A DNA stretch of 64,000 nucleotides from Asaia bogorensis NBRC 16594. GTDB taxonomy: Bacteria > Pseudomonadota > Alphaproteobacteria > Acetobacterales > Acetobacteraceae. Made by a program: the position numbers and the translations under genes. Shown piece by piece: positions 57,841-62,742 of the stretch. Each line of letters starts with the position of its first letter. The stretch's first letter is position 1. The stretch spans positions 1,174,001-1,238,000 of the forward strand of contig NZ_AP014690.1 of the NCBI RefSeq assembly GCF_001547995.1, in the 5' to 3' direction. Below the pieces are notes generated by a model that did no database searches, was not told the DNA's origin, and saw only the letters and a program-made list of their open reading frames with translations.

Positions 57841-57873
57841 TCGGTCCTACGATCACGGGATTGGTTGCAGCAC

Positions 57874-58650
57874 ATGAATTTCGAATGTGCTGCAATCGTC
57901 CTCTCCGCCCGGCGCTACGGCGAGGGCGGGGCTGTGGTCCATCTCTTCACGGAAGAGTATGGACGCATTGCGGGTCTGGTGCGTGGCGGCTCGTCACGAC
58001 GTCAGGCCGCGCTCTGGCAGCCGGGTAATCTGATTCTTGCCCGTTATGCCTCCCGCCTGTCCGATCAGCTCGGGCATCTGAGCGGTGAAATGGTTCAGGA
58101 AACAGCCGTCAGGCTACTGGATCGCCCTCTGCAACTCGCTCTGGTTCAGTCAGCCGCCGAACTGGCCGATGCTGCCTTGCCGGATCGCGAGCCTCATCCT
58201 GATTTCTTTCTCCAGACTGTGCGCGATCTCGCGGCCTTCTGTGTGCTGTCCGACCCCGCTCCGGTGGTGGATTATGTGCGCTGGGAAACCGCGTTGCTTG
58301 CGACGCTGGGTTACGGGCTGACGCTCGATTGCTGTGCCATTTCAGGCGCGACGACTGATCTCGCCTTCGTATCACCACGAACAGGACGCGCTGTAAGCCG
58401 CGATTCTGCCGGGGAATGGGTCGATCGTCTCCTGCCACTGCCTCATTATCTGACCCCGCACGGGGGTGAGGATGCCGGCGATGATCCGGCTCTATGGGCT
58501 GAGGGGCTGGCATTGACGGGACATTTCCTCTCACGCCATCTTTTCGGCTCCCAGCACAAACCTGTCCCCGGTGCGCGCGAGCGTCTGGAGATGCGTGTCA
58601 GGGCACTGGCGGATGCACGTGAGGCCGTGCAGGAAAATCCCCCGGCATAG
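57874..58650 (+). CDS. recO: DNA repair protein RecO
   Basis: Recombination mediator of 258 residues that helps load RecA on single strands (RecFOR). The N-terminal OB fold has AIVLSARRYGEGGAVVHLFTEEYGR and the pattern GLVRGGSSRR; a helical C-terminal domain follows, with CAISG in place of a four-Cys zinc site. ATG 57874 is used; a TTG at 57865 also opens the frame. Its 3' end overlaps blh on the other strand by 53 bases. Confidence 0.92.
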   Translation: MNFECAAIVLSARRYGEGGAVVHLFTEEYGRIAGLVRGGSSRRQAALWQPGNLILARYASRLSDQLGHLSGEMVQETAVRLLDRPLQLALVQSAAELADAALPDREPHPDFFLQTVRDLAAFCVLSDPAPVVDYVRWETALLATLGYGLTLDCCAISGATTDLAFVSPRTGRAVSRDSAGEWVDRLLPLPHYLTPHGGEDAGDDPALWAEGLALTGHFLSRHLFGSQHKPVPGARERLEMRVRALADAREAVQENPPA

Positions 58651-59548
58651 GTGTCCGGGCTTCACGAAGCGCCGGGGCCCTTCCAATCACATAATCGAAT
58701 ATCATGTGGGGCAGCGTCAGAGCGGCCAGAAGCTGGAACGTGACAGCGATCATTCGCGGTGCCAGCGGCCCTGCGTAGAACGGCACCATGACGGCCCCGA
58801 TGCCTAGCGAGGCAAATGTGAGCGGCAGGCTGCGATAGAATGCGTGACCCGCTGAACTGAGACGGCACCAGCGACAGTCAGCTATGAGTGATGCGATATG
58901 CGCCGGCGCGTGCTGGAACACAAAATAGATCATGAACGCCTGCAGCGGTGGCAACACTGCGAACGGCACAATCAGCCCGACCAGCGACCATAAGCGCCTC
59001 ATGCGCGTCGCGGGAGGACTGACGCCTAGCCACGCGCTGGCGCAGAGGGCCCAGACGGGAAACAGAACGATCAGCCATGATGGCGGTACGGCGAGATGAA
59101 CAGGCGGCGCCATGGCACTCAGCAGCGCTGCCGTGGCTTCTGGCTGGAATACGGAGGGGAGGATCAATGGTGCCCCTCCAAGGACAAACCCGGCCAGCAG
59201 CGAAGAACCGTTGTCGCGCATCTCACCGCCAAAATGCCAGACGGACAGAGCCAGAAACAGATTGAGCGTGATGAAGGGCACGACATGCCAAGCGACGAGT
59301 ACGAGCCCGACGAGCACGAGATAAGGTAACGCAAAAACGGGAAACCAGAGATACCCGAGACGGGGGCGCAGCGCTTGTCGTGCCATCTCTCCGTCAAGCG
59401 CACCATGTGGCAGACCAAAGATGATGATGGTGGCGAGACTGATCAGCACATCATTGGTGAGGATCGCGGCAGCGGCGCAAATTCCCGCACCGCCCCAATA
59501 GAGCGGGGCGAAGAAATCGCGTGGCCCGGTCAATGTCATGAATGTCAT
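58598..59548 (-). CDS. blh: Brp/Blh-type beta-carotene 15,15'-dioxygenase
   Basis: Integral membrane enzyme of 316 residues that cleaves beta-carotene into two retinal molecules. The predicted iron-binding His are H48 (GLPHGALD), H105 (SVWHFGGE), and H213 and H217 (FQHAPAH); their spacings (57 and 4) match the described Blh family. TLPHMIFDYV near residue 280 is another family hallmark. At least seven hydrophobic helices are present. It starts 16 bases after the rhodopsin stop, so the two form an operon. The C-terminal tail extends into the end of recO on the opposite strand. Confidence 0.92.
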   Translation of the reverse strand: MTFMTLTGPRDFFAPLYWGGAGICAAAAILTNDVLISLATIIIFGLPHGALDGEMARQALRPRLGYLWFPVFALPYLVLVGLVLVAWHVVPFITLNLFLALSVWHFGGEMRDNGSSLLAGFVLGGAPLILPSVFQPEATAALLSAMAPPVHLAVPPSWLIVLFPVWALCASAWLGVSPPATRMRRLWSLVGLIVPFAVLPPLQAFMIYFVFQHAPAHIASLIADCRWCRLSSAGHAFYRSLPLTFASLGIGAVMVPFYAGPLAPRMIAVTFQLLAALTLPHMIFDYVIGRAPALREARTPMPGDFPARPHVHPPVP

Positions 59549-59564
59549 GCCGGGCCAGACATCA

Positions 59565-60275
59565 TCAGACCGTGGTCAGTTTACGGTCATCGGACAGGCT
59601 GAGGAAGCCAAACCCGACCTTCGCCAGAACATCCGTGATGGCGATAATGAGCACGCTTGCCGAGTCCGGAACGATGCCAAACCCGTCAGGCGAGAGAGCG
59701 AGAATGATCGGATATACCATCCAGAGCACCGAAAGGATGGTGGCGCTGCGGATATAGGCCGCCTGGACTTCGGGCCGCTCGAGGCGGTTGGCCTGAAGCT
59801 GCGAGACCCAGATGACGTAATACACACCGAGAAACGCCACACAGGAAAGCACGAACCAGATCCAGCGGCTGACCACATTTTCCGAGGCACTGAAGGCGAA
59901 GGCGGTGATGATCATGATCACATCCGCAGCGACTGCGCCGAGCAGCAGATCGGCACGCTTGCGGCCGCGGAACATCCCGAGAAACCCGAGACCGACAAGC
60001 AGAAGCGGGGTTGTAAACACCCAGTCGATATAGCGGCCGAACCAGAAGATGCGGGTCGTGCTGGCGGCGCCTGCGAGTGTGGCGTCCGTCGGCAGGAGCA
60101 CTGCGCCCTGGCCTGTCGCCATGGCGACATACAAACAGCCTGCGATGATGGGGACGATACCGTGAGCAAGGCTCATCACCCCTTCGGTTTCGTTACGACG
60201 TTTGCCAAGCAGCAGCAGCGCCGTCCCACCGGCAAACATGATCAGGGCTGTCAGCCAGAGAACTGTCAGGGTCAT
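59565..60275 (-). CDS. Microbial rhodopsin, probable light-driven proton pump (DTG type)
   Basis: Seven-helix retinal protein of 236 residues in the inner membrane. Helices B, C, F and G align without gaps to bacteriorhodopsin (BR): R81, D84 and T88 in RYIDWVFTTPLLL match R82, D85 and T89; W185/Y188/P189 match W182/Y185/P186; D215 and the Schiff-base K219 in TDVLAKVGFGF match D212 and K216. The cytoplasmic donor position D96 is G95. H38 (SLAHGIVP) aligns with T46 of helix B. L92 at the tuning position predicts green absorption. E194 is D197 and E204 is S207, so the BR proton-release pair is not conserved. No N-terminal signal is seen. blh follows and would supply retinal. Pumping is inferred from the residues. 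Confidence 0.95.
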   Translation of the reverse strand: MTLTVLWLTALIMFAGGTALLLLGKRRNETEGVMSLAHGIVPIIAGCLYVAMATGQGAVLLPTDATLAGAASTTRIFWFGRYIDWVFTTPLLLVGLGFLGMFRGRKRADLLLGAVAADVIMIITAFAFSASENVVSRWIWFVLSCVAFLGVYYVIWVSQLQANRLERPEVQAAYIRSATILSVLWMVYPIILALSPDGFGIVPDSASVLIIAITDVLAKVGFGFLSLSDDRKLTTV

Positions 60276-60519
60276 TATCGCTGTCTTTCACGAGATGAGG
60301 AGAACGATGAACGGTGCCTGACACATAAAGTTGTAATTCGTCTGCCTTGACAGCCATATTTATCGGACCTGATCGCGCCACGGCGTTTCGCTCCGCAGAT
60401 GACGCAGGGGCGGCCACCCGCCGAAGCGTGCCATGCGGGACCGGGAACAAAAACGGGGTATTTGCACTGGACAGGCCGCGCCGCGCCGCCTTATCTGCCC
60501 TCAAACGAAAGGGCGTGGC

Positions 60520-62742
60520 ATGAGTCAGGATCTGGCAGGACATATCGAGGATACCAAACTCGCAGATGCGCTGAGCGAGCGCTATATTGCCTATGCCATG
60601 TCGACAATCATGGCGCGTTCGTTGCCCGATGTGCGCGATGGCATGAAGCCTGTGCATCGGCGCATCCTCTACGCCATGCAGCAGCTCAAGCTGGACCCTA
60701 CGGCGGGTTTCAAGAAATGCGCCCGCGTTGTGGGTGACGTGATCGGTAAGTTCCATCCCCATGGCGACGCCGCCGTGTACGAGGCACTGGTCCGCCTCGC
60801 CCAGGACTTCGCGGTGCGTTATCCGCTTGTCGAGGGGCAGGGCAATTTCGGTTCGATCGACGGCGATAATGCGGCCGCCATGCGTTACACCGAGTCCCGA
60901 CTGACCGCTGTGGCCAAGGCCCTGCTGGAAGGAATCGAGGATGACGCGGTCGATTTCCGTCCGACCTATGACAATGAAGATGCCGAGCCCGTGGTTCTTC
61001 CCGGCGCTTTTCCGAACCTGTTGGCCAATGGCGCGGCCGGGATCGCGGTTGGCATGGCCACCAGTATTCCCCCGCATAACGCCGCCGAGATCTGTCGCGC
61101 TGCACGTCATCTGATCGAGAACCCGCAGGCGCCGGTCGAGGCGCTGATGCAGTTCATGCCGGGACCTGACTTCCCCACCGGCGGCGTGCTGATTGAAGAC
61201 CCGGCCAGCATGGTCACGGCTTACGAGACCGGACGCGGCAGTTTCCGTACCCGCGCACGATGGGAAGTCGAACAGGGACGTTTTGGTACCTGGACCGTGA
61301 TCGTGACCGAGATTCCCTATCAGGTGCAGAAATCGCGCCTGATCGAACAGATCGCGGAGTTGATGGAGCAGAAGAAGCTACCGCTCCTCGCCGATATACG
61401 CGATGAAAGCACGACCGATATCCGCCTGGTCCTCGAACCCAAGACCAAGGGGATCGAGCCGGAAGTGCTGATGGAGACGCTCTTTCGTGTCACGCCGCTG
61501 GAGAGCCGATTCAGCCTGAACATGAACGTGCTGGACGCCAATCGTGTGCCGCGGGTGATGGGGCTGCGTGAAGTCATCCAGTCATGGCTGGACCATCGCG
61601 AGGTCGTTCTCGTTCGCCGTTCGCAGCATCGTCTGAACGCGGTTGAGCGCCGTCTGGAAATCCTCGAAGGGTTTCTGGCCGTTTATCTCAACCTTGATGA
61701 AGTTATCCGCATCATCCGTGAAAGCGACGAGCCGAAGCCCGAATTGATGCGTGTGTTCAGCCTGACGGATCTGCAGGCCGAATATGTGCTGAATATGCGC
61801 CTGCGCTCGCTGCGTCGTCTTGAGGAGATCGAGATACGCAAGGAGCGCGATGCGCTTCTCAAGGAGAAATCCGGGCTCGAAGGATTGCTGGGCAGTGAGC
61901 GCAAACGCTGGACCCGTATCGGCAAGGAGCTCGACGCGACAGCCGCCAGCTTTGGCGAGGGCGCCCTTGGCACCCGACGCACCCAGATTGCGGCACCGCC
62001 CGCGCCGATCGATTTGAGTGCCGCCATACAGGTCGATCGTGAGCCCCTGACCGTGCTCCTCTCACGTGAAGGCTGGGTGAGGGCCGTGAAGGGGCATGGG
62101 ATCGACCCCGAGAGCCACAAGTTCAAGGAAGGTGACGCGTTCGGGCTGGCGCTTGAGTGTCAGAGCACCGATCGTCTCTGCATCCTGGTGAGTGGCGGTC
62201 GGGCCTTCACGCTCAAGGCGGCTGATCTTCCGCGTGGGCGTGGCTTCGGGCAGCCCATTCGCGTTCTGGTCGATCTGCCTCAGGATGAGGATATCGTCTC
62301 TTTCTTCGTGATCGATGAGTCCGGCCGTCACGTTCTGGCCAGCGAAAGCGGACGCGGCATGATTGTGCGTGACGCCGATATGGCCGCTGAAAAACGGACG
62401 GGCAAACAGGTCCTGACGCTGCGTGACGGTGACCGCGCCGGGTTCTGCGTGGCTGTCACTGGTGATCAGATCATCACCATGGGCAGCAACCGCAAGGCGC
62501 TATCCTTTGCCCTTGATGCTTTGCCCGAAATGACAAAGGGCATGGGTGTCACGATCCAGAAGCTCCCGCCGGGTCAGCGCCTTGTCGATCTGCGGGTCTT
62601 TGCCTCGGAAACAGGTCTGGTCTGGCATGAGGGGCAAAAGCCGCGCAGTGACGCCGATCTCGCGTCGATCGTCGGCAAACGAGCGGATCAGGGCAAGGCT
62701 GCCCCGCAATGGATGACCCGCAAGCTCGTGACTAGAAGCTGA
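60520..62742 (+). CDS. parC: DNA topoisomerase IV subunit A
   Basis: Type II topoisomerase subunit of 740 residues that decatenates chromosomes with ParE. The catalytic Tyr is in [10 protein letters not shown], near residue 120; the quinolone-region segment [17 protein letters not shown] precedes it. The C-terminal beta-pinwheel is short and lacks the GyrA box QRRGGKG, which favours ParC over GyrA. ATG 60520 matches the family start; the frame is open upstream to 60433. TTGACA-17-TGATCG beginning near 60347 may be its promoter. It is divergent from the rhodopsin gene (244 bases), and its stop is four bases from that of bpt. Confidence 0.94.

Follow-up and report, generated by a model that had tools for sequence, protein, structure and literature searches.

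A DTG-Type Rhodopsin and Its blh Partner in Asaia bogorensis, a Host Without a Known Genomic Route to Beta-Carotene

The Rhodopsin–blh Cassette of A. bogorensis

The 64,000-nucleotide stretch analyzed here (the window) comprises bases 1174001–1238000 of the complete genome of Asaia bogorensis NBRC 16594, a single 3,198,265-bp contig, which is also the genome that was searched. It contains a gene for a microbial rhodopsin and, directly downstream on the same strand, blh, which encodes a Brp/Blh-family beta-carotene 15,15′-dioxygenase (Table 1). Both family matches are far above chance. The rhodopsin matches PF01036 with an E value of 6.9e-42 (143.9 bits; cut-off 24.6), and its membership is further borne out by the Schiff-base lysine K219, the counterion D84, R81, W185, and D215. 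Blh scores 129.7 bits against PF15461 (cut-off 28) and 167.8 bits against TIGR03753 (cut-off 95.25), with the family histidines conserved. The rhodopsin is 98% identical to that of A. bogorensis GD-01, and the 16-bp spacing of the two genes recurs in four of the nine other Asaia/Swaminathania loci compared, as delimited by a rule based on open reading frames (ORFs).

The gene pair itself is not new. It has been in print since 2015, when a rhodopsin/beta-carotene monooxygenase operon of this strain was published with the identical proposed function, a light-driven ion pump with retinal supply (Kawai et al., 2015; PMC4596401); the rhodopsin clade, the source of beta-carotene, and the insertion site, as treated in the present analysis, are absent from the passages of that paper available here. 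The original prediction for this locus, made from the nucleotide sequence alone, placed a rhodopsin and a Brp/Blh dioxygenase 16 bp apart on one strand of an apparent acetic acid bacterium, with all key motifs of both proteins. Both ORFs lie as predicted, the key rhodopsin residues and Blh histidines are present, and the host is indeed an acetic acid bacterium. The 3′ ends of blh and recO converge in a 53-bp overlap (58598–58650), and no match to a sigma-70-type consensus was found within the divergent stretch upstream of the rhodopsin gene (60276..60432).

Table 1. Features of the rhodopsin–blh locus (positions are those of the window).
Feature	Position	Strand	Basis
Rhodopsin gene, DTG type, 236 aa, ATG start	59565..60275	-	ORF and PF01036 match
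Rhodopsin residues: counterion D84, T88, G95, H38 (bacteriorhodopsin T46 site), R81, W185, Y188, D215, Schiff-base lysine K219			Alignment
blh, Brp/Blh-family beta-carotene 15,15′-dioxygenase, 316 aa, ATG start; H48, H105, H213, H217, H281 conserved	58598..59548	-	PF15461 and TIGR03753 matches
16-bp gap from rhodopsin stop to blh start, both genes in one transcript direction	59549..59564	-	
recO, left border of the insertion site	57865..58650	+	Named from translation
parC, bordering the insertion site on the right, transcribed divergently from the rhodopsin gene	60433..62742	+	Named from translation
Divergent intergenic stretch, expected place of the cassette promoter	60276..60432	.	

Rhodopsin Type and the Transported Ion

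The window rhodopsin has a D84–T88–G95 motif, with H38 at the site of bacteriorhodopsin T46 (bacteriorhodopsin numbering, read by eye). The rhodopsin tree suggested with the original prediction was built, and it places the protein outside the ordinary proteorhodopsins, in a 59-row clade with a support of 87 in the SH-like approximate likelihood-ratio test (SH-aLRT). The tree is a quick maximum-likelihood tree of 87 rows, with SH-aLRT and no bootstrap, and long branches are flagged elsewhere in it. The clade consists of rhodopsins from Asaia, Swaminathania, Methylobacterium/Methylorubrum, Beijerinckiaceae, and other Acetobacteraceae, several of the last coming from lichens; SpaR (PDB 8anq) lies in a separate 5-row group (support 100). 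An ordinary proteorhodopsin or xanthorhodopsin is thus ruled out by motif and tree, and the DTE-type rhodopsins of Acetobacteraceae (L024, L030, L032) are only 19–22% identical to the window rhodopsin. Across the 58 clade rows compared, K219, D84, R81, W185, D215, and H38 are invariant, and at the third motif position 37 rows have G, 10 have S, 8 have T, and 3 have A. The site of bacteriorhodopsin W189, which lies within the retinal pocket, is L in all 58 rows versus F in four SpaR-type rows.

In the available text of PMC10154332, DTG/DTS rhodopsins are split into a SpaR-like group (mirror proteorhodopsins, outward H+ pumps) and an MpR-like group; outward H+ pumping at acid pH only is shown there for SpaR, and MpR of Methylobacterium populi is assigned to the MpR-like clade and reported as a Na+/Li+ pump. 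The placement of MpR used here is taken from that text and from the Methylorubrum rows, the MpR sequence itself being outside the tree. The window rhodopsin shares with MpR the DTG motif, the histidine at the T46 site, and the conserved E31, and the Methylobacterium/Methylorubrum rhodopsins, the main group of which is 41–48% identical to it, fall in the same 59-row clade. It thus has the D-T-G/S/A/T motif and histidine of the MpR-like clade and is placed apart from SpaR in the quick tree. However, from the acidic trio of that clade (E32, E33, D35 in MpR numbering) it retains E31 only, the usual E and D being replaced by G32 and M34 (register from our own alignment). These losses would weaken, but not bar, MpR-like membership, because the source describes the trio as shared by “most” members (PMC10154332). 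The SpaR/mirror proteorhodopsins likewise have a DTS/DTG motif and a histidine at the T46 site, and their serines S121/S199 recur as S129/S207 in the window protein, which is insufficient for SpaR membership; their paired histidines H32/H33 are absent, the window protein having G32 and M34 there. A SpaR-type mirror proteorhodopsin is ruled out by the tree and the absent histidine pair, and the window rhodopsin is best described as mixing features of the MpR-like and SpaR clades.

The predicted light-driven proton pumping is therefore not settled, given a clade with a reported Na+/Li+ pump and this mixture of features, and motifs alone do not decide the ion. H+ pumping by the window rhodopsin is likely. 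Acetic acid bacteria live at low pH, and there is a substantial, if less than even, chance that the rhodopsin is instead a Na+/Li+ pump, or a H+ pump active at acid pH only, so that the cassette would serve pH or salt homeostasis in acid niches. The properties reported for MpR and SpaR, and the combination of the clade’s E31 with the SpaR-like S129 and S207, are consistent with this; the replacement of two of the three MpR-typical acidic residues and the lack of the SpaR histidine pair argue against it, and no ion measurement was found in the literature. The question of the ion is separate from, and compatible with, the explanation of retinal supply favored below.

Some further rhodopsins were noted in the course of this comparison. 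Three Methylobacterium genomes each have two rhodopsin–blh cassettes of the clade (L126/L163, L132/L172, L154/L174), one near the Asaia type (58–61% identical to the window rhodopsin) and one of the main Methylobacterium type. Rhodopsins are also carried by contigs labeled Bifidobacterium breve (metagenome-assembled genomes) and Arthrobacter sp. (L194, L196, and L179); L194 groups with Solirubrobacterales, L179 with Sphingomonas, and L196 lies on a long branch, and these labels or bins are probably wrong. Two PF01036 proteins of Acetobacteraceae (L035 and L036, in genomes G084 and G148) lack the Schiff-base lysine and the counterion, with E and A at the aligned sites; they are 16–17% identical to the window rhodopsin, and their host genomes have no blh match.

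Carotenoid Genes in the A. bogorensis Genome

The pair had been described as a self-contained module for proton pumping “given beta-carotene,” and a search for crtE, crtB, crtI, and crtY had been proposed as a check. This search, which formed part of the refuting condition set for the prediction and gives the main result of the analysis, yielded two crtI-family genes above cut-off, in a cluster of C30 type, with no crtB or crtY of the families searched and no CrtE match above its cut-off. The description as self-contained is thus doubtful, and beta-carotene, although named in the prediction, proves to be the weak point of the module.

Two genes of the complete genome match PF00494. One is HpnD (319.9 bits; cut-off 278.6) and the other HpnC (251.2 bits, barely above the cut-off of 250.45), and HpnE and squalene-hopene cyclase genes lie beside them. 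With both models above cut-off, an identity of either gene as a phytoene synthase is ruled out, and no CrtB homologue beyond HpnC and HpnD was found in the genome by the PF00494 search. The other eight Asaia genomes likewise have two PF00494 genes each, counted here as family members without individual classification (in one genome, one gene is split into adjacent pieces). PF00348 also matches two genes. The first is a farnesyl diphosphate synthase (332.7 bits; cut-off 275), which reaches 286 of the 460 bits required by the CrtE model; the second is a long-chain prenyl synthase, whose best model, octaprenyl diphosphate synthase, scores 323.6 bits, below its cut-off of 412. No PF00348 gene of the complete genome therefore has a CrtE-model match above cut-off that would mark a geranylgeranyl diphosphate (GGPP) synthase. 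Seven of the nine Asaia genomes have two PF00348 matches; the W19 draft (9% contamination) has three, and A. platycodi has four fragments, apparently of two broken genes.

Lycopene cyclase was sought with PF05834, scoring up to 44 candidates per genome in a set of 30 rhodopsin-bearing Acetobacteraceae genomes. Among the matches listed, true CrtY proteins score 156–317 bits over the whole model (7 of 30 genomes). The best matches in the nine Asaia genomes and in Swaminathania, to a halogenase-like protein, reach 33.6 and 42.9 bits, respectively, and cover only positions 1–158 of the 380 in the model. No strong CrtY match thus occurs among those listed for the nine Asaia genomes, cyclases of the CruA type being outside the search with their own model, and the CarR-type cyclase model TIGR03462 has no match in any of the 30 genomes. 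The weak PF05834 matches of the A. bogorensis genome were also considered as hidden cyclases, but of the five counted, the four examined are halogenase-like, sulfide-quinone-reductase-like, lipoamide dehydrogenase, and ETF-QO proteins, and the fifth is weaker still. The halogenase-like flavoprotein, of about 550 aa, occurs in Asaia (L232 1449–3098; genome 2,358,501–2,362,800) and in Swaminathania (L201 1351–3039); it matches the lycopene cyclase family in its N-terminal part (28.1 and 43.6 bits, respectively) and also matches Trp_halogenase.

The two CrtI-family genes, both above cut-off, lie together at 1,636–1,639 kb, with an aldehyde dehydrogenase gene on one side and genes for an acyltransferase, a glycosyltransferase, and a DUF2141 protein on the other. 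The components of a squalene-derived C30 route, namely HpnCDE, CrtN/CrtP-like enzymes, and tailoring genes, are all present (1,634.4–1,641.5 kb and 2,924–2,942 kb of the genome), and the cluster looks like one of C30 squalene type. The known enzymes would therefore yield C30 carotenoids without beta-ionone rings, not beta-carotene. From the set needed for self-sufficiency (GGPP synthase, phytoene synthase, desaturase, and lycopene cyclase), only CrtI-family proteins were found with the models used. As described in the available parts of PMC10448405, the C30 pathway of Methylobacterium extorquens AM1 is similar in its squalene synthesis by HpnCDE, two CrtI-family enzymes, glycosyltransferase, and acyltransferase; AM1 differs in having a crtB gene without a known role in pigment formation, and Asaia in having the aldehyde dehydrogenase gene in the cluster. 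No earlier report of the missing C40 branch was found in the open-access literature (a single library).

Carotenoid Genes in Other Hosts of the Clade

The same gap recurs across the clade. Through the named loci, 49 genomes were reached, 47 with a clade rhodopsin and two controls with other rhodopsins, and up to 31 CrtY candidates were scored per genome. Within this scope, canonical CrtY is absent from all 47 clade hosts, and the controls, Aureimonas leprariae and Sphingomonas rubra, both have it (309.7 and 282.8 bits). Weak PF05834 matches in ten clade hosts are ruled out as hidden cyclases, since eight are BchP or match it, one is halogenase-like (L201), and one is UbiH-like (L208); three of the BchP assignments are above the TIGR02023 cut-off, and the other five are 75–97% identical to one of these. 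TIGR03462 has no match in any of the 40 genomes tested with it (38 clade hosts and the two controls).

The 30 Acetobacteraceae genomes include several incomplete drafts, with a completeness of 67 and 73% for two of the clade hosts. Among the matches listed for this set, CrtY occurs in 1 of 22 clade hosts and in all six hosts whose rhodopsin is of the DTE or SpaR type; for one of the six (G260), the type was assigned only by the resemblance of a C-terminal piece. The exception among the clade hosts is G017, whose CrtY matches lie on different contigs from the clade cassette; a second rhodopsin gene stands beside one CrtY. Both SpaR-type hosts tested (G360 in this set, G445 in the set of 49) have CrtY, unlike Asaia, and for the two hosts left, G084 and G148, the matches listed include no strong one. 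The counts 47/47, 1/22, and 6/6 are not independent, as hosts are related by descent and some genomes are in both sets.

Constancy of the Pair, Selection, and Insertion Site

The blh gene lies directly downstream of the rhodopsin gene in 55 of the 59 clade loci, and in one of the other four (L129) the contig stops 105 bases on. No third gene travels with the pair in the 29 loci chosen from the 59; the other neighbor clusters coincide, to judge by their offsets, with the pair itself. TIGR03753 is matched in 25 of the 30 rhodopsin-bearing Acetobacteraceae genomes, the five without it being G084 and G148, with their lysine-less rhodopsin-like proteins, and the clade hosts G128, G163, and G206, drafts that are 85, 73, and 67% complete.

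Both genes are under purifying selection. The rhodopsin gene has a median dN/dS of 0.061, from all 45 pairs of 10 sequences, and blh one of 0.271, from 29 of the 36 pairs of 9 sequences (A. platycodi was excluded for its broken frame, and seven pairs were dropped with dS undefined or at least 3). The Blh histidines H48, H105, H213, H217, and H281 are kept wherever a row has a residue at the site (43, 43, 41, 41, and 40 of 43 rows, respectively); in this comparison, 42 of the 59 loci yielded Blh under the ORF rule, and 13 of the 17 left out have blh by tblastn. In the A. platycodi draft (L123, G307), the frame is broken in blh, in parC, and in both genes for prenyl synthases. Because these other genes are broken as well, the break in blh is probably an assembly fault, and a decay of blh inferred from this draft was dropped.

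A rhodopsin gene occurs in 30 of 397 Acetobacteraceae genomes (15 of 102 genera), including all nine Asaia genomes surveyed, and in Swaminathania. The window, all eight named Asaia loci, and the locus of Swaminathania share the order recO–blh–rhodopsin–parC. Of 20 relatives that lack the cassette at this position, 13 have recO and parC no more than about 420 bp apart; in the other seven, parC was not seen inside the 1.5-kb flank. The simplest reading is a single acquisition of the cassette at the recO–parC junction, predating the divergence of Asaia and Swaminathania. The GC contents of rhodopsin and blh equal that of the window, so a recent foreign origin by composition was dropped; the acquisition is therefore not recent, or the donor genome was similar. 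The cassette is real, old in Asaia, and under selection.

Related rhodopsin–blh pairs are also found on plasmids. A cassette from a leaf Methylobacterium (L263; NZ_CP099615.1, a 40,208-bp plasmid) adjoins an IS91 transposase gene and an integrase gene, and its rhodopsin, which is outside the tree, is 44.6% identical to that of the window; a Methylobacterium plasmid of this type is a plausible vehicle for the cassette. Relatives of the window rhodopsin occur in 7 of 72,556 plasmid records. In the pairs on Methylobacterium, Pantoea, and Sphingomonas plasmids, blh is annotated with the same Blh family name; the Pantoea and Sphingomonas rhodopsins, also outside the tree, have an adjoining blh, as in Asaia.

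Source of the Retinal

In the favored explanation, to which a probability of roughly 0.45 is given, the cassette is a working light-driven cation pump whose retinal derives from externally supplied carotenoid. The rhodopsin, a member of the DTG clade of Methylobacterium and Acetobacteraceae, would pump cations outward in the light, probably H+ (or Na+/Li+), and Blh would cleave beta-carotene to the retinal that would be bound at K219. The host would make C30 carotenoids from squalene, without the known C40 branch, and would take up beta-carotene from outside, e.g., from flowers, fruit, or the insect gut, so that the cassette would be a salvage-fed pump. An external supply is proposed because the genome is without a known route to beta-carotene. 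Flowers, fruits, and insect hosts are rich in carotenoids. Asaia has been isolated from flowers and fruits (PMC4596401). Mosquito hosts of Asaia are also named in the literature. The extension of this explanation to the whole clade, in which rhodopsin–Blh hosts would harvest beta-carotene from plant, lichen, or insect and the retinal cleaved from it by Blh would drive pumping, is tentative and rather unlikely as it stands.

Several points weigh against the favored explanation. Family searches leave room for a novel cyclase, and the CruA type was outside the own-model search. Three clade loci, L134, L141, and L158 (a partial rhodopsin), have no blh match in the following 1,975, 1,384, and 4,943 bases, respectively. 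Blh also diverges unusually fast within Asaia/Swaminathania, being 43–60% identical in most pairs, compared with at least 80% for the rhodopsin (window versus L117–L125); at 85–90% rhodopsin identity, the median Blh identity is 48% (21 Asaia/Swaminathania pairs), compared with 71% in 85 pairs of the main Methylobacteriaceae group. The sole explanation offered here is that the demands on Blh may be looser or may have changed. Finally, the accessible text of PMC6151773 gives beta-carotene for two A. bogorensis strains, ISD1 (0.1 micrograms per 100 mL) and ISD2 (0.7 micrograms per 100 mL), but none for a third, together with alpha-carotene and myxoxanthophyll, after growth on a near-minimal medium of sucrose and 0.05% yeast extract and with identification against authentic standards by that paper’s account. 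For beta-carotene, an ion of 537.3791 is printed where 537.4455 would be calculated, and the ions of the two carotenes deviate by 124 and 137 ppm. An error of more than 100 ppm is, in our judgment, wide for an Orbitrap. Because the printed masses are so far from the calculated value, limited weight is given to this report, which is still the sole chemical evidence found.

The main rival is hidden endogenous synthesis, i.e., that the host makes its own beta-carotene with enzymes outside the searched families, such as a CruA-like or new cyclase and an unusual phytoene route. The carotenes reported by liquid chromatography–mass spectrometry point in this direction, as does Aurantimicrobium minutum, which, according to the available passages of PMC7734400, makes retinal without a known gene for it. 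A. minutum is likewise a rhodopsin host whose retinal source is not explained by its genome, but the gap is a mirror image of that in Asaia: A. minutum has C50 carotenoid genes and no blh, whereas Asaia has blh and no known C40 branch. Because retinal is formed there by an uncharted route, a genome without the known genes need not belong to a cell without retinal. In addition, the tested Methylobacterium hosts are equally without known cyclases, and one shared unknown enzyme would explain both. However, endogenous synthesis would require several novel steps at once in Asaia, which has no CrtB homologue other than HpnC and HpnD, no GGPP synthase match above cut-off, no match for a CarR-type cyclase, and no strong one for CrtY; the weak PF05834 matches examined in the A. 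bogorensis genome belong to the four other proteins named above, and the printed C40 masses are off by more than 100 ppm. Endogenous synthesis is regarded as unlikely.

That the cassette is a non-working relic in Asaia is very unlikely: the lack of a known substrate supply, a gap between Blh and rhodopsin identities wider than in Methylobacteriaceae, and the broken frame in A. platycodi would fit such a relic, but both genes are kept in all nine Asaia genomes and in Swaminathania with low dN/dS and intact catalytic histidines, and the A. platycodi break is probably technical. Least probable of all is that the Blh of this clade acts on another carotenoid (e.g., the linear C30 carotenoid of the host) to give a chromophore other than retinal, which would suit the C30-type gene set of Asaia without ring-forming enzymes of the searched types, the absence of canonical CrtY from clade hosts, the L at the W189 site, and the fast divergence of Blh in Asaia, but is opposed by the ordinary Blh histidines and family score, by the shared Blh family name of the plasmid-borne pairs, and by the lack of a precedent for Blh acting on a C30 carotenoid in the passages of literature available.

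Implications for Light Use in Plant- and Insect-Associated Bacteria

The finding is one of mismatch: an enzyme kept under selection is present without a known genomic route to its substrate, and this recurs in several genera. The window rhodopsin, moreover, mixes two DTG groups whose ion selectivity is disputed, and the identity of its ion would help to identify the residues that decide selectivity. If the route to beta-carotene is internal, an unknown ring-forming enzyme would be present in culturable genera such as Asaia and Methylobacterium. If, as in the favored explanation, beta-carotene or retinal is taken from hosts, bacterial light use on flowers, leaves, and insects would be tied to the pigments of those hosts. 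Either possibility is accessible to routine culture work and mass spectrometry. Were harvest to hold across the clade, photoheterotrophy in these bacteria would depend on a pigment precursor derived from the host.

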